Source: Undaria pinnatifida (lineage: Eukaryota > Sar > Phaeophyceae > Laminariales > Alariaceae). Taken from it: DNA of 64,000 bases. The notes under the pieces were generated by a model. It was given only the letters and a program-made list of their open reading frames with translations, was not told the origin of the DNA and made no database searches. The stretch lies in NCBI GenBank assembly GCA_012845835.1, contig JABAKD010000024.1, positions 1,742,362 to 1,806,361 of the forward strand, read 5' to 3'. Made by a program: the position numbers and the translations under genes. Shown here piece by piece: positions 40,955-64,000 of this stretch (its first letter is position 1; each line of letters opens with the position of its first letter).

Positions 40955-41754
40955 TGTTAAAAATAATGCGCTGTGTCCCAGCAGCAGGTAGATGCCGCTG
41001 ATGCTCGTAGACTGTGTGGCCTACCTCAGAGGTATACACTCAGAGAGCAGTCGAACTGCGAGCGACTCAGAAACAGAGAAATGAAGATGTTTGATTACTG
41101 ACCCTGTTAAGAATAATGCGCTGTGTCCCAGCAGCAGGTAGATGCCGCTGATGCTCGCAGGCTGTGTGGCCTACCTCAGAGGTATACACTCAGAGAGCAG
41201 TCGAACTGCGAGCGACTCAGAAACAGAGAAATGAAGATGTTTGATTACTGACTGACTCCCAAGTCAGGTTTTGCTGGTGCCGATGAGGAGTGAGAAGGGT
41301 GGGCGAGCTAAAGGCTGGGCCACTCTTCTCGAATGCGACAAAAATAAGCCAATCACACAAAAGATCCAGAATGATTCCAGAATAATTCTGGAAGGTTTCC
41401 TACGTTCTAGAAGCAGCAACCTCGATCTGAAACGCTTTCAGAAGCTTACAGAAATTCCAGAAGCTTCTAGAAGGCTTCCAGAAGCTACACACGTTCAACG
41501 TTAATGTCCCGGTCAACCTTGACCTATCATGCTTCCGGAATATTTCTAGAACAAGAGAATACATGCTACGGAGACATAAAGGTGTGCCCGCTAGATTCTT
41601 TTCTACTGCTACGCAAAAATACTAGTTGCTGCAATCTACGTCTGCGCTACATATCGCTACTACCGACACACGACTGTCAAGTTGTCGCAATCGTACACAA
41701 AGGTAGAACTGTGTTCAGCTGTTGACAGATGCACATAGAGACATCCTTGACACA
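40955..41754 (-). repeat. 3' LTR of the copia element
   Basis: 800 bp, TGTTAAAAATAATGCG to CATCCTTGACACA on the plus strand, matching 47,538-48,337 base for base except at about three positions. Its first ~300 bases are a 150-bp tandem repeat (units from 40,955 and 41,105). Confidence 0.93.
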
Positions 41755-44700
41755 ACCCCGCGAATGGACAACCAGTCGATGTGTTTAACGGAAAAACAAC
41801 TTTGTCTCGTGCAACCCCGCAATTCGCATATGATTGCAACTTCCTAATTCACGAATGCCAAGAAACATTGTACTACAATTGAGTCGACATATCATAGACC
41901 ATCATGTCTATTTAGACTAACTACGTAGTCTTTATACGGAGAGAAAAAGTGGTACTCGTCCACGCTCCTGTTCGTGAACTCCTTCCTGGTGATTGCCTTC
42001 CTGCGTCTGATGATGTTCTTGCGCACGTGCACGCATATTCCAAAATCAAATTTCCGTCCGAAAACGCTGTCCTTCACCCAGCCGTCCACGAATAAATCTC
42101 CGACATTCGGCGACGAAAAAAAAAAAAAAAAAAAAAAAATCCTTCAGTGCTTGAAGTTCTGAATTTGCAGGAGGATCGACGTGAAGCGATGCTTGGGCAG
42201 ATGCTTGGTCGCGATGTCCGCCAATTGCTCCTCGCTCCGCTTGTGGTGGAGGTTGATCTTGCCCCTAGATACCAGCTCCCGGATAAAAAAGTAGCGTAGG
42301 GCGACATGCTTCGTTCTCTGGCTGTGCATGGCATTCCCAGCCACTGTGAGAGCCCCGGTACTATCACTGTGGATTGGCACCGATTCGAAGTTCTTGAACT
42401 TCAGCTCTCCCATGAAGTTGGAGATGTAGACCGCTTCCCTAGCGGCGTAGCTGATTGCCTGGATCTCGGCTTCGACCGTGCTCTGAGCAACAATCGTCTG
42501 GCTTTTTGCCCCGAAGTTAAGCAGTCCGCCTCCCAGGGAGAACAAATAGCCGGTGGTGGATCTTCCGTTGTCCGGGTTTGCCCCGAAGGACGAGTCTGCG
42601 TATGCGGTCAGTCGGAATTGTCCGCGCTTGTAGGTGATGGGCAGGTCCGGGTTTCCGCGAAGGTATCGCAGTACGTGCTTAGCTGCCCTCAGGTTGACTT
42701 GAGCCGGGTTGTTGCAGGCCTTGGACAGTTGCAGTGCTGCAAAGCAGATGTCGAATCTGGTGCCTTGCGTCAGGTAGAGAATGCAACCCGTCATTTGTTG
42801 GAACAATCGCTTCTCATCGGACCCGAGCAGCTGGTCCTGAGGGTGTTCCGTGGAGATCTCCGCTCCGTATCCTGGAGTGCTCACTGGGTTCGCATCCTGC
42901 ATTCCGAATCGCTCCAGGATCGTAGCGACGTAGTGTCCTTGCGAGATGGATAGGGTCCCTTGCTCGTAGTCGCGCTTGACCTCGATGCCCAGGATGCGCT
43001 TGACTTCGCCTAGGTCGGTCATCTCGAATCGGTCAGTCAGTTCCCGTTTCTTGTTGTTCACCAAGTTTTGGTCTTCTCCGGTCATGAGAAAATCGTCCAC
43101 GTACACCGACAGAATCACCATGGTAGCGCCGTCTGTGTAGGTGTACACGCAGGGGTCGGACTGCGTCCGCTTCCAGCCGAACGCCGAAAGGGTCGCGTCG
43201 AGAGTGTCGTTCCATTGCGCCGGCGATTGTGATAACCCGTAGAGGCTGCGCTTGAGTTTGTAGATCATCGGTTCTCCTGTCTTCGGGTCCTTGTGAGTTT
43301 CCCCAGGAGCGGGCCTGACGTACACGTCCCTGTCGCAGGGAGCGTTCAGGAATGCTCCGACGACGTCCAATTGATGGATGACCCATCCTTGTTCGTTGGC
43401 GATGGCGAGGATCAAGCGAATGCTCTCGATGCGGCACACCGGTGCGTAGCTTCGTCCGTAGTCGTATCCTGCTTCTTGGCGATGTCCACCGACGACCAGA
43501 CGGGCCTTGAATCGTCCATCCAGTTTTTTCTTGAATACGAACTTTGTGCTGAGGATCTTGTCTGTTTTGGGTACGCTACTGAGCGGGACGAGGGTGTAGA
43601 CGTTGTGTTTCTCCAAACTCCCCATCTCGGTAGGGCAAGCTTCTTCCCACTTCTCGCGCTGGGGTGAACTCATGGCTTCCGCGTAGGTGTCCGGGATTTT
43701 GAACACTTGACTCGTCTCCTCCAAGAGCCCGTGCGGGGCTTCGCTGCGCGTGGCGTAGATGTAGCCGCAACCGGGGAAGGGATCTTCCGGAAAGTGGGCG
43801 AAGTCCCAGACGTCTCCGGGACACGGTTGGGACGATTGAGCTGCGATGGTGCTCAATTGGTCGAAAGCGAGCGCGGTAGGATCGGTGCGCCCAACTGCTA
43901 AGCGTGCGTTGCCGCGTGCGGTTCCGTCGTCGCTCATGGTCACAGTCAGAGCACCCGGAACTAAGGCAGGGTCCACGGGATCATCGTGGGCCGGTTTGCG
44001 ACGCGTGCTGGCGCGAGTGACTTCGAGGCGGCGCATACCTTGACGCGCCGCTCCAGCTGCGCCAGCTCCTCCTGAAGTAGTGCCTCCCCGTGAAGGCGAA
44101 GATGGTCCCGCCGTTCCCGCAGATCCAGCTTCTCCCCCAGCTTCTATACCGCCGTTCGGCTCCACGCCTCCCGTGTCAGCGGCTCCTCCTGGATCAGCGG
44201 TGCTTCCCGGACTAGCAGCTCCCTCCAGCGAAGCTCCTCCTGGTGATGAGGCTCCTCCCGGCGAAGGATCTTCCGGGGAGAATGAGTCTTGGTGGTTGTC
44301 CTGCTGCAGCTCCAAGCGTAGCTCCTCCCGATCGAGGTTGTCTTGTTGCATTTGACGGATTTCTTGCCGGAGGAGTTCGTTCTGCGTTTGGAAGTCCAAC
44401 CCACTGGCAGTAGTGGGGTTTTCGGGCCCCAGGAGGGAAGTGTAGCTCAGGACATCGCTCTCGTAGCCGTGTGCCTCGTCGGAATACTGAAAGGGAACCG
44501 AGCGCGGCGGTGACTCGATGAAGGTTACGTTACGGCTCTCGATCACGGTACCGTTGGACAGATTGAGGATCCGGTACGTCTTGCTGTCTAGTCCGTATCC
44601 ACAGAGTTTGCCTTCGAAGGCCCTGTCGTCCAGTTTCTTGCGATAGCGCTCGTGGTGCACAAAGGCGCGAGCTCCGATCGCGCGAAGTCCCGACAGATCC

Positions 44701-47063
44701 GGAGACTTGTGGTGCATCTTCGAGTAGGGAGTAGTACCTCCCAGCGCTGAGTGCGGCGACCGGTTCAGTAGATACGCAGCCGTCATCATGAGTTCGCCCC
44801 ACATATAGGGCGGAAAATCACCGTCCTTCAGGAGGCATCGGGTCATGGCTGAGAGTGTTTGCCCGTCGCGCTCCGATGTTCCGACCTGTTGAGGCGTGTT
44901 GGTGGCAGCGTATTCGAGCTTGATAGCTGAGCTCTTGCAGTATTCGCGGAATTCAGTCCCGGTGTTTTCACCTCCCTTGTCGCAACGGATGGTTTCGATG
45001 CGGTACCCGTCGCTGGCGACTCGCATGTTGTAGGCATGGATAGCTTCGGTGGTGTCGGCTTTCTTGCGGAGCAGGTACACTTCCTTCATTGTGGTAAAAT
45101 CGTCGGTGATCTTGCAGGCGTACGGGAACAATCCTCCCTTGGACTTTGCTGGTGGGGTGACGGGTCCCAGATTGTCGATGACCACGATCTCTCCAGGCCG
45201 AGAAAGCTCGCGAGTGCTCTTCTTGGGGTGTGGAGACTGCTTGTGTTTCCCCACCTCGCAGATTTCGCAAGGGGAAGGTGTATCCGAGTAATCCACGCCA
45301 GTGTCCGGGTCTTTCCTCAGGATGTCCATGTTGCGAGGGTTGATGTGTCCCAGTCTCCTGTGCCAGGTATCCGCAGCAATTGCTACTGAGCACACTGCTC
45401 GTGAAACCGCTGGGTGGTGATGCCTTGTTGACATTCTTGGAGAGCGGCTGGTCAGACGTCTTGCCAGCTTGGGAAGGAGTCGCAGACGTTTCTTGAAACG
45501 TGACGTCCAGCGTGCACATTCCTTGGTCCTGCGGGTCCTGACGGAGCGGAATGACTGTCTTCTGTACTGTGAGGTGCGGAGTTTTGTCTTCAACCACGCA
45601 TCGCAGCCCTTTCTTCAGCAGTGAAGTTGGCGAAAAAATGTTACGCCCAAGCCCAGGTACAATCAGTCCAGTGAGGCGAGTAGGACGCTGCTTTCCCTCG
45701 TTGTCTGAGATGGTGCAGTGAAGGACACCTATTGCTGTTCCCTGTAGTTGGCCTTCGCCCGCTATGTCGATGATCTTCGGGATAGTTCGCGCCTTGTAGT
45801 CTTGGATGCGTCCCTCGGGGATCAGACGGCTGTCGAACATCGTCTCCGACGCTCCTGTGTCCACCAGCAGTCTGACTCCAGTCTCACTGGCCGAAAAATC
45901 CCGTCCCCTGAAGCGGGAGCAGGTGGCGAACATGAATGCATTGTCGAATCCGTCGTCCTCGTCGCGAGTGAAGTCGATCGCTGTTTTCTCTTTGCTCGGT
46001 TCTTGCTTGTCCGATGATGCCGAACAGTGATGACAGTGAGAGCATGCTGTGAAGGCCTTGCCTCGCTTCCGTGCTTCCGGCTTCTTGGCGCCCTGTTGGA
46101 GGCATTCCTCGTTGGAGTGAGAGGTGGTGTTGTGTACTGAGCACCACTTCGTTGCTCCGGCCGGCTGTTTCCTTTCTTCCCTGAGCTTGGGGCAGTGCCT
46201 TCGGATGTGGCCGGGCTCGTTGCATCTGTGGCAGATCAGCGTCGCTGTGGTTGTCATGGCAAACCCGCGACCAGAAATCCGCCCTTTTGATCCCTTACGC
46301 GACTGTGAGTCGAGGAATATGTTGCGCATGGTGGACTGGATCTCGCCAAGCGCGAAGGACGGGTCGCGGAACACCATCATCTTGACGTCGTTGCACTCGT
46401 CGGTGATTCCCTGGATACATATGTCCTTGAAGCGTCGATCCGTCACAGGTTCACCCATCTTGTTCAGCTGAGCGCGCAGGAGCATCTTATTGGTGAAGTA
46501 GTCGTCAGGGTTCTCACCAGGGTTCATTGGATTATTCTCCATCTCGTCCATCTTTGCCCTGATCACCTCGTCGGTTACTCTGTCGTAGTTGTCGCAGAGC
46601 TCCTGAAAGGCAGCCTGCCCGTCTCCGCTGATTCCAGTGTCGTCCTCGTGCTTCTGTACTGCTAGTGCAGCCGGTAGTTCCACCAGAAGAAACAGGATGG
46701 CGTAGAGATCCTCGTTAGCTCTTGTGTATAACTCGAGTGCGTTGGTGTCCCCAGGGTCTGGCCGCGGTTGTTTCTTCAGTAGTGGTAGAATGTCCTTCCT
46801 GGTAGCTCCAACCACGACACAGAACTCCTTCATCCATGTCTTGAATTCCGCAGGGTCCTTGCCGTCGAACTTCCTGAGTCCTTTGATCACGGTTACCAGG
46901 TTCGTGGAGTTGTCGCTGGCGAAGGTGCTTCCTCCCGTGTTGCTCGGTGGGATCACTTCTCCTCCCTCCGGCATGATGATTCTTATGATCTTCGTCTTTT
47001 ACTAGATGTCCCTTCTGCCGCAGAAGTATTCTTGCTCTGGGTGTCTATGCCCGAGTGTTCCCC

Positions 47064-47210
47064 ACCCCGCTCCTGCTTATGATAAAGAGGACTCCGGTTG
47101 TGGTTTTTGTTCCTGACCCCGCTCCTGCTAATGATATAGAGGACTCCGGTTGTCTTCCCCACCCCGCTCCTGCTAATGATATAGAGGACTCCGGTTGTGG
47201 TTTTTCCTTG
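47064..47210 (-). repeat. ~50-bp tandem repeat in the copia leader, three copies
   Basis: CCCGCTCCTGCT(A/T)ATGATA followed by AGAGGACTCCGGTTGT occurs three times between 47,064 and 47,205, in the leader between 5' LTR and gag. The last two copies are identical over the core. Confidence 0.8.
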
Positions 47211-47519
47211 ATGATTATACCGCAGTGTTCTTGTCCCGATGTAAAATACTCAAAATTCTTCCGCACAAGTGATTCGCTTCACAACCCACTACTGCTGTTG
47301 CAGTACTGGGTAGGTGTTGAGATGTACTTGAAGCTCCTCGGTGTAGATGATCGAGGTTGTGCGCTCACGTTTGTTGCCGCTGACCGATGACGACGTCGCA
47401 ATCTCCAAAAATTTCCGAGGTTCCAAGAACTCCGCTCGCTGTCCGCAGAGGCTGTCGAGTATCCCAAGAAGGATGTGTTGACCTCCCCTTGACGTCCGTA
47501 GCTCGTAGAGTGCGTGCGT

Positions 47520-47537
47520 TAACCGAGGCTCATAACC
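47520..47537 (-). promoter_or_regulatory. Putative primer-binding site of the copia element
   Basis: Directly inside the 5' LTR the minus strand reads GGTTATGAGCCTCGG. GGTTATGAGCC is complementary to the anticodon-loop sequence GGCTCATAACC typical of initiator methionine tRNA. Use of an internal half-tRNA-iMet as primer is established for Drosophila copia and yeast Ty5, so the same is inferred here. Confidence 0.6.
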
Positions 47538-48337
47538 TGTTAAAAATAATGCGCTGTGTCCCAGCAGCAGGTAGATGCCGCTGATGCTCGTAGGCTGTGT
47601 GGCCTACCTCAGGGGTATACACTCAGAGAGCAGTCGAACTGCGAGCGACTCAGAAACAGAGAAATGAAGATGTTTGATTACTGACCCTGTTAAGAATAAT
47701 GCGCTGTGTCCCAGCAGCAGGTAGATGCCGCTGATGCTCGCAGGCTGTGTGGCCTACCTCAGAGGTATACACTCAGAGAGCAGTCGAACTGCGAGCGACT
47801 CAGAAACAGAGAAATGAAGATGTTTGATTACTGACTGACTCCCAAGTCAGGTTTTGCTGGTGCCGATGAGGAGTGAGAAGGGTGGGCGAGCTAAAGGCTG
47901 GGCCACTCTTCTCGAATGCGACAAAAATAAGCCAATCACACAAAAGATCCAGAATGATTCCAGAATAATTCTGGAAGGTTTCCTACGTTCTAGAAGCAGC
48001 AACCTCGATCTGAAACGCTTTCAGAAGCTTACAGAAATTCCAGAAGCTTCTAGAAGGCTTCCAGAAGCTACACACGTTCAACGTTAATGTCCCGGTCAAC
48101 CTTGACCTATCATGCTTCCGGAATATTTCTAGAACAAGAGAATACATGCTACGGAGACATAAAGGTGTGCCCGCTAGATTCTTTTCTACTGCTACGCAAA
48201 AATACTAGTTGCTGCAATCTACGTCTGCGCTACATATCGCTACTACCGACACACGACTGTCAAGTTGTCGCAATCGTACACAAAGGTAGAACTGTGTTCG
48301 GCTGTTGACAGATGCACATAGAGACATCCTTGACACA
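47538..48337 (-). repeat. 5' LTR of the copia element
   Basis: 800 bp, near-identical to 40,955-41,754 and with the same internal 150-bp tandem repeat. The outer flanks read AACTT on the left and CTTCT (or CACTT if the LTR ends two bases earlier) on the right. The target duplication is therefore either imperfect (AACTT/CACTT) or absent. Confidence 0.93.
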
Positions 48338-53178: not shown

Positions 53179-53538
53179 ATGTTGTGACGACGTTTGATGA
53201 ATGCATAAATAGGGTGGCGGTGTTTGTGTTGTGTAATGTCACGTCCATGCGCGTCGAAGCATGCACAACGAGTACAGAGATACAGAGTGGTGCCGAGGAT
53301 GTTGGGCAGCACCACAGCGGCTGAGGTCTACTCATTTGAAGGTGTTCATGTCGGTGGCATATAACGAGCAACGCGTCATTGCATTCGTAGGTGCCATAAA
53401 GTGCACGTGATGAATGCACTTGCGTGGTTTCAAGTCGTGAAATGGACTATTGGGCGAGAGAGGCCAACAAATATCAAAAAATGATTTTTTTTAACCTCGC
53501 ATGAACCGGATGCCTTCATTAATCAAGATGTGGGAGCC
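53096..53538. repeat. 443-bp tandem duplication, unit 1
   Basis: ATTTGCTCGTATGCGGCAGC begins at 53,096 and again at 53,539. Units differ by a two-base gap near 53,180 and about one substitution, so the duplication is recent. Unit 1 overlaps the start of the Helitron-like frame and preserves the intact sequence GCGTCATTGCATTCG that is interrupted in unit 2. Confidence 0.9.
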
Positions 53539-53820
53539 ATTTGCTCGTATGCGGCAGCGGGCATGGGGCATCTCAATGCTGTAATCTGCAGTGGGCATGG
53601 CCAATCGTAACTACTTGACATGTTGTGACGACGTTTGATGAATGCATAAATAGGGTGGCGGTGTTTGTGTTGTGTAATGTCACGTCCATGCGCGTCGAAG
53701 CATGCACAACGAGTACAGAGATACAGAGTGGTGCCGAGGATGTTGGGCAGCACCACAGCGGCTGAGGTCTACTCATTTGAGGGTGTTCATGTCGGTGGCA
53801 TATAACGAGCAACGCGTCAT

Positions 53821-54088
53821 TGTGAAATTAATAGGTGGGGGACACAGAGTGCCCCCTGCAGGTCTGCCAATTGGGTAGGTCCTCGGAGTACTCACTTTCG
53901 TTCCTTCGTAGAGATGTAGCTTTATTCGTTTCCACCAGAGCCCGGGATAGCTTCTGAGATCGGAGGCGCGTGCCTCCGATCTAATTCCTAACTTCCCCGA
54001 ATATAAACCGCCAACCTCATCATACGAAACCCATCCAAATGATCTCAAATTCGGATACCTACAGGCCTTTCGAGGCCGTATCTTAACA
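53821..54088 (-). repeat. LTR 1 of the TRIM-like array
   Basis: 268 bp. It contains a perfect 11-bp stem with a four-base loop at 53,957-53,982 and, on the minus strand, an AATAAA word (53,931-53,936), as expected for an LTR polyadenylation region. A GTGAGT donor-like word on the minus strand lies near 53,897. Confidence 0.8.
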
Positions 54089-54343
54089 CTAGCCCACCCT
54101 GATGAGTCGCATATGCAGAAATATGGGAGATTCGGGGAAACTCCGGTTCTACGAACTAGACCATGAGTCGAAGATGCGGCTCCTCAAAACCCACTCCCAC
54201 ACCTCTAACCGTCTGGCTACGGAGCCAGGAACACGCGACGATATGGAGGGGGACACAGGCGCTAACACAAGGGAGAAGTCATGCGAAAAACCTCCCGCGG
54301 GCCATCGGCAAGGCGGGGGGGTTAGACGGGGAAGCGACGAGTG

Positions 54344-54733
54344 TCAGCGTGTTGGGTGACCTTTCACTGTGCTCGACATAATGAGCCCCACTGCTCGATG
54401 GTCTTGCAAAAACTTGGTATTTTCGGCCATCATGTACTGCTCCGCGCAAGAATATGGTACGTCGTCCACGGCAAACGACGAAGGAGACCACGGTGGGAAA
54501 TAGGATGGGGGCTGCCAGAATAACACCACTTTGGCTGTGGAGTATTCGAGAGAAGGGTCAAAATCCGTGTTGAAATTTGGGCCTGCAATGTCCCCGTCCA
54601 GGAACACCAGGCCTCGGGAGCACGACGCGAATCCGAACCCGTGGTATCTCGCCTCGGGTCTTTCTTCGCTCGTTGGCGGAAAAGCGCGAGAATCCGCTCT
54701 AACTGCGCCCGAAGTCCTGCCGTCGACGCCACT
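54344..54733 (-). CDS. NADAR-domain fragment carried by the LTR element (unit 1)
   Basis: The minus-strand frame of the internal segment encodes a piece of a NADAR (YbiA/DUF1768-like) domain: LFWQPPSYFPPWSPSSF, then VPYSCAEQYMMAENTKF and AVGLIMSST. The S-x-AEQYMMA-x-K-F signature is diagnostic of the family. NADAR proteins are N-glycosidases, known in riboflavin-pathway by-product clearance and in removing ADP-ribose from guanine in DarT-type toxin-antitoxin contexts. The preceding residues (YHGFGFASCSRGLVFLDGDI) may belong to the source gene. The frame runs in from the LTR, so no independent start is visible. It is the N-terminal portion of the domain only, so enzyme activity is not implied. 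It is best read as a captured host gene fragment. Confidence 0.65.
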   Translation of the reverse strand, partial: SGVDGRTSGAVRADSRAFPPTSEERPEARYHGFGFASCSRGLVFLDGDIAGPNFNTDFDPSLEYSTAKVVLFWQPPSYFPPWSPSSFAVDDVPYSCAEQYMMAENTKFLQDHRAVGLIMSSTVKGHPTR

Positions 54734-55001
54734 TGTGAAATTAATAGGTGGGGGACACAGAGTGCCCCCTGCAGGTCTGCCAATTGGGTAGGTCCTCGGA
54801 GTACTCACTTTCGTTCCTTCGTAGAGATGTAGCTTTATTCGTTTCCACCAGAGCCCGGGATAGCTTCTGAGATCGGAGGCGCGTGCCTCCGATCTAATTC
54901 CTAACTTCCCCGAATATAAACCGCCAACCTCATCATACGAAACCCATCCAAATGATCTCAAATTCGGATACCTACAGGCCTTTCGAGGCCGTATCTTAAC
55001 A
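54734..55001 (-). repeat. LTR 2 of the TRIM-like array
   Basis: Same 268-bp sequence as LTR 1, at the start of the second 913-bp unit. Confidence 0.8.
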
Positions 55002-55256
55002 CTAGCCCACCCTGATGAGTCGCATATGCAGAAATATGGGAGATTCGGGGAAACTCCGGTTCTACGAACTAGACCATGAGTCGAAGATGCGGCTCCTCAA
55101 AACCCACTCCCACACCTCTAACCGTCTGGCCACGGAGCCAGGAACACGCGACGATATGGAGGGGGACACAGGCGCTAACACAAGGGAGAAGTCATGCGAA
55201 AAACCTCCCGCGGGCCATCGGCAAGGCGGGGGGGTTAGACGGGGAAGCGACGAGTG

Positions 55257-55646
55257 TCAGCGTGTTGGGTGACCTTTCACTGTGCTCGACATAATGAGCC
55301 CCACTGCTCGATGGTCTTGCAAAAACTTGGTATTTTCGGCCATCATGTACTGCTCCGCGCAAGAATATGGTACGTCGTCCACGGCAAACGACGAAGGAGA
55401 CCACGGTGGGAAATAGGATGGGGGCTGCCAGAATAACACCACTTTGGCTGTGGAGTATTCGAGAGAAGGGTCAAAATCCGTGTTGAAATTTGGGCCTGCA
55501 ATGTCCCCGTCCAGGAACACCAGGCCTCGGGAGCACGACGCGAATCCGAACCCGTGGTATCTCGCCTCGGGTCTTTCTTCGCTCGTTGGCGGAAAAGCGC
55601 GAGAATCCGCTCTAACTGCGCCCGAAGTCCTGCCGTCGACGCCACT
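55257..55646 (-). CDS. NADAR-domain fragment (unit 2)
   Basis: Same protein as in unit 1, from the second internal segment; no residue difference is seen. Confidence 0.65.
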   Translation of the reverse strand, partial: SGVDGRTSGAVRADSRAFPPTSEERPEARYHGFGFASCSRGLVFLDGDIAGPNFNTDFDPSLEYSTAKVVLFWQPPSYFPPWSPSSFAVDDVPYSCAEQYMMAENTKFLQDHRAVGLIMSSTVKGHPTR

Positions 55647-55914
55647 TGTGAAATTAATAGGTGGGGGACACAGAGTGCCCCCTGCAGGTCTGCCAATTGG
55701 GTAGGTCCTCGGAGTACTCACTTTCGTTCCTTCGTAGAGATGTAGCTTTATTCGTTTCCACCAGAGCCCGGGATAGCTTCTGAGATCGGAGGCGCGTGCC
55801 TCCGATCTAATTCCTAACTTCCCCGAATATAAACCGCCAACCTCATCATACGAAACCCATCCAAATGATCTCAAATTCGGATACCTACAGGCCTTTCGAG
55901 GCCGTATCTTAACA
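55647..55914 (-). repeat. LTR 3 of the TRIM-like array
   Basis: Same 268-bp sequence, at the start of the third unit. Confidence 0.8.
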
Positions 55915-56169
55915 CTAGCCCACCCTGATGAGTCGCATATGCAGAAATATGGGAGATTCGGGGAAACTCCGGTTCTACGAACTAGACCATGAGTCGAAGA
56001 TGCGGCTCCTCAAAACCCACTCCCACACCTCTAACCGTCTGGCCACGGAGCCAGGAACACGCGACGATATGGAGGGGGACACAGGCGCTAACACAAGGGA
56101 GAAGTCATGCGAAAAACCTCCCGCGGGCCATCGGCAAGGCGGGGGGGTTAGACGGGGAAGCGACGAGTG

Positions 56170-56559
56170 TCAGCGTGTTGGGTGACCTTTCACTGTGCTC
56201 GACATAATGAGCCCCACTGCTCGATGGTCTTGCAAAAACTTGGTATTTTCGGCCATCATGTACTGCTCCGCGCAAGAATATGGTACGTCGTCCACGGCAA
56301 ACGACGAAGGAGACCACGGTGGGAAATAGGATGGGGGCTGCCAGAATAACACCACTTTGGCTGTGGAGTATTCGAGAGAAGGGTCAAAATCCGTGTTGAA
56401 ATTTGGGCCTGCAATGTCCCCGTCCAGGAACACCAGGCCTCGGGAGCACGACGCGAATCCGAACCCGTGGTATCTCGCCTCGGGTCTTTCTTCGCTCGTT
56501 GGCGGAAAAGCGCGAGAATCCGCTCTAACTGCGCCCGAAGTCCTGCCGTCGACGCCACT
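56170..56559 (-). CDS. NADAR-domain fragment (unit 3)
   Basis: Same protein as in units 1 and 2. Here the open frame continues upstream through the outer LTR into flanking DNA (to 56,871), so the apparent start depends on the insertion site and is not informative. Confidence 0.65.
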   Translation of the reverse strand, partial: SGVDGRTSGAVRADSRAFPPTSEERPEARYHGFGFASCSRGLVFLDGDIAGPNFNTDFDPSLEYSTAKVVLFWQPPSYFPPWSPSSFAVDDVPYSCAEQYMMAENTKFLQDHRAVGLIMSSTVKGHPTR

Positions 56560-56827
56560 TGTGAAATTAATAGGTGGGGGACACAGAGTGCCCCCTGCAG
56601 GTCTGCCAATTGGGTAGGTCCTCGGAGTACTCACTTTCGTTCCTTCGTAGAGATGTAGCTTTATTCGTTTCCACCAGAGCCCGGGATAGCTTCTGAGATC
56701 GGAGGCGCGTGCCTCCGATCTAATTCCTAACTTCCCCGAATATAAACCGCCAACCTCATCATACGAAACCCATCCAAATGATCTCAAATTCGGATACCTA
56801 CAGGCCTTTCGAGGCCGTATCTTAACA
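56560..56827 (-). repeat. LTR 4 (outer) of the TRIM-like array
   Basis: Same 268-bp sequence, ending CTTAACA directly against the second TCAT. Because this last copy stops exactly at the LTR end, it defines the LTR boundary. Confidence 0.85.
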
Positions 56828-56994
56828 TCATTGCATTCGTAGGTGCCATAAAGTGCACGTGATGAATGCACTTGCGTGGTTTCAAGTCGTGAAATGGACT
56901 ATTGGGCGAGAGAGGCCAACAAATATCAAAAAATGATTTTTTTTAACCTCGCATGAACCGGATGCCTTCATTAATCAAGATGTGGGAGCCATTA

Positions 56995-57542: not shown

Positions 57543-58931
57543 CTAGATGTACCTCCCTGTTTTCATGGCCCTGCCCCCTCCAGCCGCAAGGGCCAAGCCC
57601 TTCCCCCCATACACTTCCGAAGAAGCATCGAACAACAACCCGCTATCCATATAAATGGCTAGTTTGTAACTGCTGCGTGTATGTTTCAACGCGCAGAAGG
57701 CTGTGCGGTATTGCTGCTTAATGCTATCGGCCGTGGCAAGGAAAGAGTCCCCGCCGTCTCGCTCTCTCTGTGGCCCTACCCTCTTAACCCCTCCCCCAAA
57801 CACTCTACTGCTCCCACCCCTATCCTTGCCACTTCCGACCGCAAGGGCCAAGTCCTCCCCCCCATACACTGCCGAAGAGGCATCGAATGACAACCCGCTA
57901 ACCATATAAATGGCTGATTTGTAACTGCTGCGTGTATGTTTCAACGCGCAGAAGGCTGTGCGGTGTTGCTGGCTGATGCTGTCGGTCGTGGCAGGGACAG
58001 AATTCCCGCCGTCTCGCTCTCTGTGTGACCCTGCCCTCTTAACCCCCTCCCCAAAAACACTGCCTCTCCCACCCTTGAGCTTGCCACTTCCAACCGCAAG
58101 GGCCAAGTCCTCCCCCCCATACACTTTCAAAGGAGCATCGAACAACAACCCGCTATCCATATAAATGGCTGATTTGTAACTGCTGCGTGTATATTTCAAC
58201 GCGCAGAAGGCCGTGCGGTATTGCTGCTCAATGCTATCGGCCGTGGCAAGGAAAGAGTCCCCGCCGTCTCGCTCTCTCTGTGGCCCTACCCTCTTAACCC
58301 CTCCCCCTAAAACACTACTGCTCCCACCCCTACCCCTGCCACTTCCGACCTCAAGGGCCAAGTCCTCCCCCCCATACACTGCCGAAGAGGCATCGAATGA
58401 CAACCCGCTATCCATATAAATGGCTGATTTGTAACTGCTGCGTGTATGTTTCAACGCGCAGAAGGCTGTGCGGTGTTGCTGGCTGATGCTGTCGGTCGTG
58501 GCAGGGACAGAATTCCCGCCGTCTCGCTCTCTGTGTGACCCTGCCCTCTTAACCCCCTCCCCAAAAACACTGCCTAATCTCCCACCCTTACGCTTGCCAC
58601 TTCCGACCGCAAGGGCCAAGTCCTCCCTCCCATACACTTCCGAAGAAGCATCGAACGACAACCCGCTATCCATATAAATGGCTGATTTGTAACTGCTGCG
58701 TGTATATTTCAACGCGCAGAAGGCCGTGCGGTATTGCTGCTCAATGCTATCGGCGGTGGCAAGGAAAGAGTCCCCGCCTTCTCGCTCTCTCTGTGGCTCT
58801 GCCATTAGTACCCCCCCCCCTCTCATCGACCTTCCGGTTCTACCGTGCACAAAACCTCCTCTCGCGACACGGGTCGCCCCTCTTGTTGTGATCCACGATG
58901 TGACCACGTTAGACAACAGCAGGAGGCGCAT
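57543..58931 (-). CDS. Protein of five 85-residue tandem repeats, unknown function
   Basis: A single 462-codon frame from ATG at 58,931. After an N-terminal segment (MRLLLLSNVVTSW, weakly hydrophobic) come five repeats of about 85 residues with the core RTAFCALKHTRSSYKSAIYM, then GLSFDAS..VYGGEDLAL.VGSG. The DNA period is 255 bp; the word CCATATAAATGGC occurs at each 255-258 step. Two unit types alternate (RERDGGNSVPATTDSISQQH and RERDGGDSFLATADSIEQQY), giving a 510-bp higher-order repeat. The single length difference seen is a three-base insertion that keeps frame. The core matches no family I know. A related copy lies inverted at 63,230-64,000. A TATA-like word lies about 800 bases upstream. 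It may be a genuine repeat protein or a non-coding satellite that happens to stay open. Confidence 0.5.
   Translation of the reverse strand: MRLLLLSNVVTSWITTRGATRVARGGFVHGRTGRSMRGGGVLMAEPQREREGGDSFLATADSIEQQYRTAFCALKYTRSSYKSAIYMDSGLSFDASSEVYGREDLALAVGSGKRKGGRLGSVFGEGVKRAGSHRERDGGNSVPATTDSISQQHRTAFCALKHTRSSYKSAIYMDSGLSFDASSAVYGGEDLALEVGSGRGRGGSSSVLGGGVKRVGPQRERDGGDSFLATADSIEQQYRTAFCALKYTRSSYKSAIYMDSGLLFDAPLKVYGGEDLALAVGSGKLKGGRGSVFGEGVKRAGSHRERDGGNSVPATTDSISQQHRTAFCALKHTRSSYKSAIYMVSGLSFDASSAVYGGEDLALAVGSGKDRGGSSRVFGGGVKRVGPQRERDGGDSFLATADSIKQQYRTAFCALKHTRSSYKLAIYMDSGLLFDASSEVYGGKGLALAAGGGRAMKTGRYI
57648..58790 (-). repeat. 255-bp tandem repeat with 510-bp higher order
   Basis: ATAAATGGCT lies at 57,651, 57,906, 58,161, 58,416 and 58,674. 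Units one apart differ more than units two apart (for example CTGCTTAATGCTATCGGCCG against CTGGCTGATGCTGTCGGTCG), the pattern of a two-monomer higher-order array. Confidence 0.9.
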
Positions 58932-63229: not shown

Positions 63230-64000
63230 ATGCGCCTCCTGCTGTTGTCTAGTGCTGTGGTCATATAGTGGATCACGAGAGGGGCGACCCGTGTCGCAAG
63301 AGGAGGTTTTGTGCACGGTAGGACAGGAAGGTTGATGAGGGAGGGGGGGGTAATAATGGCAGAGCCACAGAAAAAGCAAAACGGCGTGTACTCTTTCCTT
63401 GCCACGACCGATAGCAATATCAAACAGGGACACCGCACAGCCCTCTGCGGGTTGAAACATACGCGTAGCAGTTACGAATCAGCCATTTATATGGACAGGG
63501 GGTTGTCGTTTGACGCTTCTTCGGGAGTGTGTGGGCGGGAGGACTCGGCCCTTGAGGTTGGAAGTGGCAAGGTTAGGGGTGGGAGAGGTAGTGTTTTAGG
63601 GGAGGGGATGAAGAGGGCAGGGTCACGGAGAGAGCAAGACGGCGGGGACTCTTTCCTGGACACGACCGATACCAGTAATAAGCAGCAATACCGCACAGTC
63701 TTCTACGCGTTGAAACATACACGCAGCAGCTACAAACCAGCCATTTTTATGGGTAGCGGGTTGTCGTCCGATGCCTCTTCGAAAGTGTTTGGGGGGGAGG
63801 AGTTGGCTCTTGCGGTTGGAAGTGGGAAGCTTAAGGGCGGGAGCGGTAGGGTTTGGGAGGAGAGGATGAAGAGGGCAGGGCCACAGAGAGAGCGAGACGG
63901 CGCAGAGACTCTTTTCTTGCCACGACCGATAGCATTAGGCAGCAATGCTGCACAGCCTTCTGCGCGTTAAAACATACGCGCAGCATTTACAAACCATCTG
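63230..64000 (+). pseudogene. Second copy of the 85-residue-repeat gene, apparently decayed
   Basis: The ATG at 63,230 matches the left-arm start (MRLLLLSSAVV), but an in-frame TAG follows within 13 codons. The frame 63,311-63,970 then carries two full repeats (HRTALCGLKHTRSSYESAIYM and QYRTVFYALKHTRSSYKPAIF) with the same 255-bp period, before a one-base register change in the third unit. Repeats here are more diverged than in the left arm and do not show the strict alternation. The array continues beyond the window. If splicing or a later start is used it could still be expressed. Confidence 0.5.

Follow-up and report, generated by a model that had tools for sequence, protein, structure and literature searches.

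The segment at positions 53821-56827 of the window analysed here (64,000 nucleotides, C31:1742362-1806361) is a tandem array of a small long terminal repeat (LTR) element, which is probably a non-autonomous retroelement akin to the terminal-repeat retrotransposons in miniature (TRIMs), derived by the joining of strong-stop DNA from a longer family bearing NADAR and integrase sequences. The structural basis of this assignment is directly visible and comprises the LTRs, a primer-binding site (PBS) for tRNA-Ser, an end resembling a polypurine tract (PPT), a target duplication of 4 bp with its empty site, and an internal part that comes from long relatives; the source assembly searched for the latter has 511,146,479 bases in 68 contigs. 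The array itself belongs to a known kind of element; less expected are the junctions located at the tRNA stop and the read-through beyond it.

Sequence comparison revealed a period of 913 bp, with three units closed by a further 268-bp LTR, as the first-pass annotation had correctly described together with the LTR ends, the single TCAT duplication and the coordinates. The four LTRs (53821..54088, 54734..55001, 55647..55914 and 56560..56827) have TG...CA ends and do not differ from one another at any position in all six pairwise comparisons. The sense strand of the element is the minus one, on which all its parts are given here; read this way, the array has the fourth LTR as its 5' LTR. The three internal regions, each of 645 bp, occupy positions 54089..54733, 55002..55646 and 55915..56559; units 2 and 3 are identical and unit 1 differs by one base (window position 54218, T vs C). 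The minus strand of LTR 1 contains TATAT at position 84, a 26-nt palindrome at 107, and AATAAA at 163; its predicted fold is not special (z -1.06). A single LTR-internal-LTR unit would be 1181 bp in size.

Only one target duplication, TCAT (53817..53820 and 56828..56831), surrounds the whole array. Since a ca. 441-bp tandem duplication received the insertion in only one of its copies, the neighbouring copy, devoid of the insertion and with TCAT present once (53376..53379), represents a paralogous empty site. When the array and one TCAT are removed, the joined flanks match this copy in 446 of 450 positions, with the junction ungapped and a single 2-bp gap elsewhere. A single insertion explains the site, either of one unit amplified in place later or of a ready-made array. 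The three units could have come about after a single insertion, through unequal recombination between LTRs, or a concatemer could have been inserted as such, and the sequence of the array fits both alike.

The internal region consists of several blocks which, in sense coordinates, are a spacer (1-2), the PBS (3-20), a NADAR segment (21-360), an antisense piece of 41 bp (360-400) and a 3' suffix (394-645), the two inner joins overlapping by 1 and 7 nt. The 18-nt PBS TGGCGTCGACGGCAGGAC (54714..54731, with further copies at 55627-55644 and 56540-56557) is complementary to positions 76 to 59 of tRNA-Ser(CGA) with its CCA, which indicates that tRNA-Ser is the primer and that the NADAR segment lies in sense; the tRNA positions were numbered within this analysis. 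The 340-bp NADAR segment (54374..54713, with further copies at 55287-55626 and 56200-56539) is followed by the 41-bp piece (54334..54374), antisense to the 84-bp repeats that adjoin the 5' LTR of a long relative, and by the suffix common to the long relatives and the short copies (54089..54340). The latter terminates in the PPT-like sequence CAGGGTGGGCTAG (54089..54101) before the 3' LTR, and its last 20 nt are the same in the array and in a long relative on contig C18. The possibility that the 3' internal part contains a tRNA-like gene was rejected, as no Rfam tRNA match was found there up to E 10.

The pattern of the tRNA 3' end, built from the PBS, has 37 exact matches in the source genome and none for the reversed control. 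Among eight matching loci examined with ARAGORN, three are tRNA-Ser(CGA) genes followed by T runs, and the 3' end of each, with CCA added, is the exact complement of the array PBS. No tRNA was called in the other five, even with introns allowed; CCA stands directly behind the match in all of these, and they therefore resemble extended PBSs rather than genes. By their coordinates, 11 of the 37 matches are extended PBSs of the array's own family. Four loci (L058, L062, L063 and L065) have extended PBSs that perhaps belong to other LTR families using the same tRNA-Ser primer. In viral contigs the exact pattern had no matches; a loosened pattern gave three loci there, all of them tRNA 3' ends, a result superseded by the search of the source genome.

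The source of the internal sequence is indicated by the long relatives. The NADAR segment has at least 37 other near-full-length matches of 98-99% identity among the 40 scored of 924 candidates, at least nine of which, judged by eye from the rows listed, lie ca. 5 kb from the tail of a family LTR on the same relative strand. All five 10-kb loci fetched (L053-L057) comprise family LTR sequence (a remnant only in L053), the 3' suffix, NADAR and ca. 228-bp repeats in the same order. Extension of four long loci by 4.5 kb brought in a full 5' LTR on C18 and a partial one on C2. The complete relative, C18:7421452-7432322, is 10,871 bp long and flanked by ACTG on both sides; its two LTRs are identical over 268 of 268 positions and differ from the array LTR by three mismatches, and it codes for a NADAR domain and an integrase (H2C2, with rve 0.1 bit short of its cut-off). 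NADAR and integrase occur in the same element in L054 (NADAR 3e-16, Integrase_H2C2 5e-11, and rve 1e-7, whose 32.5 bits lie 0.1 bit below the cut-off of 32.6) and in L057 (NADAR 1e-18, H2C2 3e-10, and rve 9e-7, below the cut-off). The long relatives examined cover 475 of the 477 bases between the PBS and the common 3' part. This coverage, together with the 98-99% identity to the NADAR of the family's long loci, points to a non-autonomous derivative rather than to a fresh capture of a host gene. The string spanning the PBS-NADAR junction occurs exactly three times in the source genome, always in the array, hence no master copy is seen in the assembly. Two kinds of repeats were also noted in the long loci, of 84 bp behind the 5' LTR in L066 and of ca. 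228 bp before NADAR in L054 and L057.

The full 913-bp unit was matched only by the three units of the array (93 matches, with 40 scored of 3258 candidates), while many other matches in the same search cover positions 1-501 of the unit at 92-95%. The short relatives compared here, restricted to full LTR-LTR elements and leaving aside fetched pieces with a single LTR or with opposite LTRs, form a set of 11 including the array. As the first-pass annotation had proposed to verify, all 20 LTRs of the ten others have TG...CA ends and all 11 elements are flanked by identical 4-bp target duplications, as is one long relative; the shortest copy examined spans 789 bp (a 521-bp unit plus one LTR). Six of the ten (L033, L036a, L036b, L037, L041 and L045), and nearly L044, are made up of the PBS and a 3' suffix, variable in length, taken from the sequence of the long relative. 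In L033 (with a PBS of 13 nt), L041 and L045 the PBS passes directly into the suffix, which starts elsewhere in each; in L036a 39 nt of tRNA-Ser complement stand between the two, and in L036b, L037 and L044 an A-rich stretch comes first after the PBS.

Within the assembly, the LTR end is followed by 13 nt of the PBS at 485 places, by all 18 nt at 417, and by 18 nt and then [AGT]CGAACC at 64, with none for the reversed controls. The 30 nt behind the PBS were read at 40 of the 417 places, hand-picked from the first 100 listed, and are AGAAA-type in 16, read-through of the ACGAACC form in seven and of the TCGAACC form in two, CATGGG-type in three, pieces of the family's own LTR, integrase or 3' part in five (by eye), and others in seven; over the initial 12 nt, 30 different sequences were counted. 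In the 16 copies whose PBS is immediately followed by AGAAA(A)n, the longest run of A reaches 28, and ATGG follows within 30 nt in five of them; the stretch is either a leader or an untemplated addition. The 417 PBS ends, the 30 kinds of continuation and the 64 read-throughs fit the joining of strong-stop DNA to incomplete complementary DNA (cDNA). In such a course of events, plus-strand strong-stop DNA would comprise the LTR and 18 tRNA nucleotides, up to the 1-methyladenosine at position 58 (m1A58). Instead of being transferred to a complete minus strand, it would be joined to the end of a minus-strand cDNA left by premature termination or by a template switch, and enzymes acting in trans would make and insert the product.

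Several observations weigh against this origin. Two short copies, L038 and L042, start with sequence that they have in common and that the long relatives examined lack, and only 118 of 183 positions of L039 are covered by them. The AGAAA stretch of 16 of the 40 sampled copies may be a simply inherited leader. Copies with the same sequence after the PBS may stem from one event, and with such shared descent the counts would not be those of independent events. The match to the tRNA is left before nucleotide 18 in L033 (13 nt) and in L066 (13 nt) and L067 (11 nt), the only two long relatives sequenced back to their 5' LTR in the loci retrieved, which means that the 18-nt stop is not universal. A PBS form with T (CGTCGTCGG) is unmatched to any tRNA gene called by ARAGORN. 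Two of the four extended long loci, L068 and L069, showed no rightly oriented 5' LTR, and neither reverse transcriptase (at E 0.01) nor RNase H, protease or gag was found by a Pfam search of the minus frames of L054, L057, L066 and L067; because no reverse transcriptase was found, the parent family is treated as a relative, and not as a member, of the NADAR-bearing Gypsy elements.

The idea of the first-pass annotation that the element picked up a NADAR fragment from a host gene draws on an abrupt PBS-NADAR junction unique to the array locus and on published TRIMs with gene fragments (PMC4717578). It is very unlikely, however, since the segment does not originate outside the element family, as a transduced host gene would: the same 340 bp recur at 98-99% in the 37 or more places mentioned, at least nine of them ca. 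5 kb from the LTR tail, and NADAR is accompanied by family LTR sequence in five of the five loci fetched. Somewhat less improbable, though still unlikely, is that the short copies go back to ordinary deletions in the genome, inside long elements already inserted, and are not products of reverse transcription. Their internal parts are indeed mostly subsets of the long relative, and short overlaps occur at the joins; on the other hand, one deletion edge would need to coincide repeatedly with the 18-nt end of the PBS, tRNA read-through stands between the PBS and the body of some copies (it is not found behind the PBS of L066 and L067), and the target duplications are intact throughout the short set. 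As to the threefold repetition, the near identity of the units, as well as a gap of 500 N at another place in the window, would suit an assembly artefact arising from a single insertion, which nevertheless appears quite improbable. Unit 1 is set apart from units 2 and 3 by one base, and PBS sites lying close together on the same strand suggest further arrays with other unit lengths: C30:5800608/5801561/5802514 (spacings of 953 and 953 bp), C2:12728655/12729136 (481 bp), C22:2635548/2636025 (477 bp) and C1:13828165/13828803 (638 bp), all of them known from match lists.

Returning to the origin through strong-stop DNA, the read-through copies make it possible to look at the tRNA stop itself. Nucleotide 19, the first beyond the 18-nt PBS, stands opposite tRNA position 58. 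All three called tRNA-Ser genes have A58, which predicts T in the copy, but A is found in 48 of the 64 read-through copies; among the other 16, the expected T is present in 15 and one is unresolved between G and T. In L036 (3123-3392) the extended PBS reaches into tRNA-Ser as far as the border of tRNA positions 27/26, the longest read-through among the copies read, and A opposite position 58 is the only change over 39 nt; seven further places among the 40 read have an extended PBS with A there. In human immunodeficiency virus type 1, m1A58 terminates plus-strand strong-stop DNA at the end of the 18-nt PBS and read-through is possible (PMC13191261). Reverse transcriptases often misincorporate opposite m1A (PMC7472051), although the authors of that paper did not see this in the PBSs of endogenous retroviruses. 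It can be proposed tentatively, and with some doubt, that the mini-LTR elements were each born in one faulty reverse transcription and that the wrong base A was often written when m1A58 was bypassed.

About equally balanced between true and false is the alternative that the 48 copies inherited their A opposite position 58 from an old substitution, or copied it from a tRNA-like sequence with T58, so that it is no trace of m1A58. A 26-nt string with T58 occurs 139 times in the source genome, against 76 for the string with A58, and no fewer than 91 of the former lie outside the 48 copies, including 17 at a regular spacing of 359 bp and one in L053 behind another LTR-like end. The A58 of the called genes speaks against it, as do the expected T in nearly all the remaining read-through copies, the frequent misincorporation opposite m1A (PMC7472051) and the lack of other changes over the 39 nt, the last known from the one copy read that far. 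The 17 evenly spaced copies, at C13:868346-874090, form a possible satellite grown from LTR-PBS units.

The internal part does encode a piece of NADAR, as first annotated, and the absence of gag and pol was likewise borne out, since it has only this partial frame. The latter matches positions 2-64 of the 163 of PF08719 with 26.5 bits, vs a cut-off of 35.1; its first in-frame ATG is codon 222 of 250, leaving no usable start codon upstream of the NADAR piece, and the array holds no complete expressible NADAR domain. In comparison with an algal-looking copy in L001, mismatches at codon positions 1, 2 and 3 number 4, 13 and 8, i.e., without an excess at third positions. Judged from these sequence features, the piece is not a gene here and has no predicted protein function, being apparently an ordinary passenger. 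A search of long proteins for the NADAR region gave 40 candidates and no matches, viral contigs compared with the NADAR protein gave seven stretches with none confirmed, and bacterial and archaeal genomes gave 181 stretches with one confirmed, L001. This is a contig titled as a Litoreibacter metagenome-assembled genome (CALFWN010000031.1), whose first ca. 900 bp are algal-looking NADAR sequence, probably a chimera. NADAR-related proteins numbered 104 of 106 candidates; 73 of the 105 aligned rows match Pfam NADAR, and one of the 105 matches a Copia-type reverse transcriptase (RVT_2). In one protein, P0047, the end of a Copia reverse transcriptase appears by eye to be joined to the NADAR segment.

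The first-pass annotation knew of no NADAR-bearing tandem element; both tandem and gene-capturing TRIMs and brown-algal LTR elements with NADAR have been published (PMC4717578, PMC12477816). According to Gao et al. 2016 (PMC4717578), tandemly arrayed TRIMs (TA-TRIMs) are common in plants, with 129 subfamilies in 35 of 43 genomes; like the array described here, they are composed of LTR-internal-LTR units sharing LTRs within one outer target duplication and have no coding capacity, and some TRIMs carry gene fragments. With TRIMs the array shares direct TG...CA LTRs around a short internal part devoid of gag and pol, a PBS and a PPT-like end, and a target duplication in the range of 4-6 bp. It differs in that its duplication is 4 bp, as against 5 bp given there for gene-carrying or new TRIMs, and it also departs from TA-TRIMs in its brown-alga-like host and in NADAR coming from a longer family. 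Its single unit of 1181 bp exceeds the TRIM length (<1,000 bp in the same source; about 1,000 bp as the criterion used here), and therefore it is called TRIM-like. The long relatives resemble Gypsy-12_Ec32, a NADAR-bearing Gypsy lineage of Ectocarpus (Dinatale et al. 2025, PMC12477816), in being brown-algal LTR elements with NADAR upstream of integrase, and differ from it in that no reverse transcriptase was found, the comparison being one of descriptions and not of sequences; the array unit differs further in having kept only 340 bp of the NADAR region. Tandem LTR retrotransposons of rice (PMC11899658) also alternate LTRs and internal parts within one target duplication, and recombination or concatemer retrotransposition was proposed for them; unlike the array, the 28 selected tandems encode retrotransposon domains. 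The end of the 18-nt PBS set by m1A58, with read-through possible, likens the family to the strong-stop DNA described for retroviruses in PMC13191261, whereas here genomic joins are seen in many copies of one family. PMC7290008 was rejected as a source on NADAR, the word being the name of an author there.

Other repeats are present in the same window. A Copia element on the minus strand, at 40955-48337, has 800-bp LTRs (99.6%) with a 150-bp tandem duplication; no clear target duplication was found around it. Its PBS region, GGTTATGAGCCTC, looks like what we take to be the anticodon arm of tRNA-iMet, a primer type different from that of the array. Tandem repeats of ca. 255 bp lie in two inverted blocks (57569-58821 and 63343-63996).

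The mechanisms of TRIM transposition are called poorly understood in the abstract of PMC4717578, and a literature search returned nothing linking strand transfer, internal deletion, the PBS and non-autonomous LTR retrotransposons. With 417 exact LTR-PBS ends and a following sequence that mostly changes at the tRNA stop, the origin of TRIM-like elements becomes testable from their junctions. Should the proposed birth in a faulty reverse transcription be true, every short copy would document a single second-strand transfer that failed, and dozens of traces of a tRNA modification and its bypass would be preserved in the genome in a form that can be dated.

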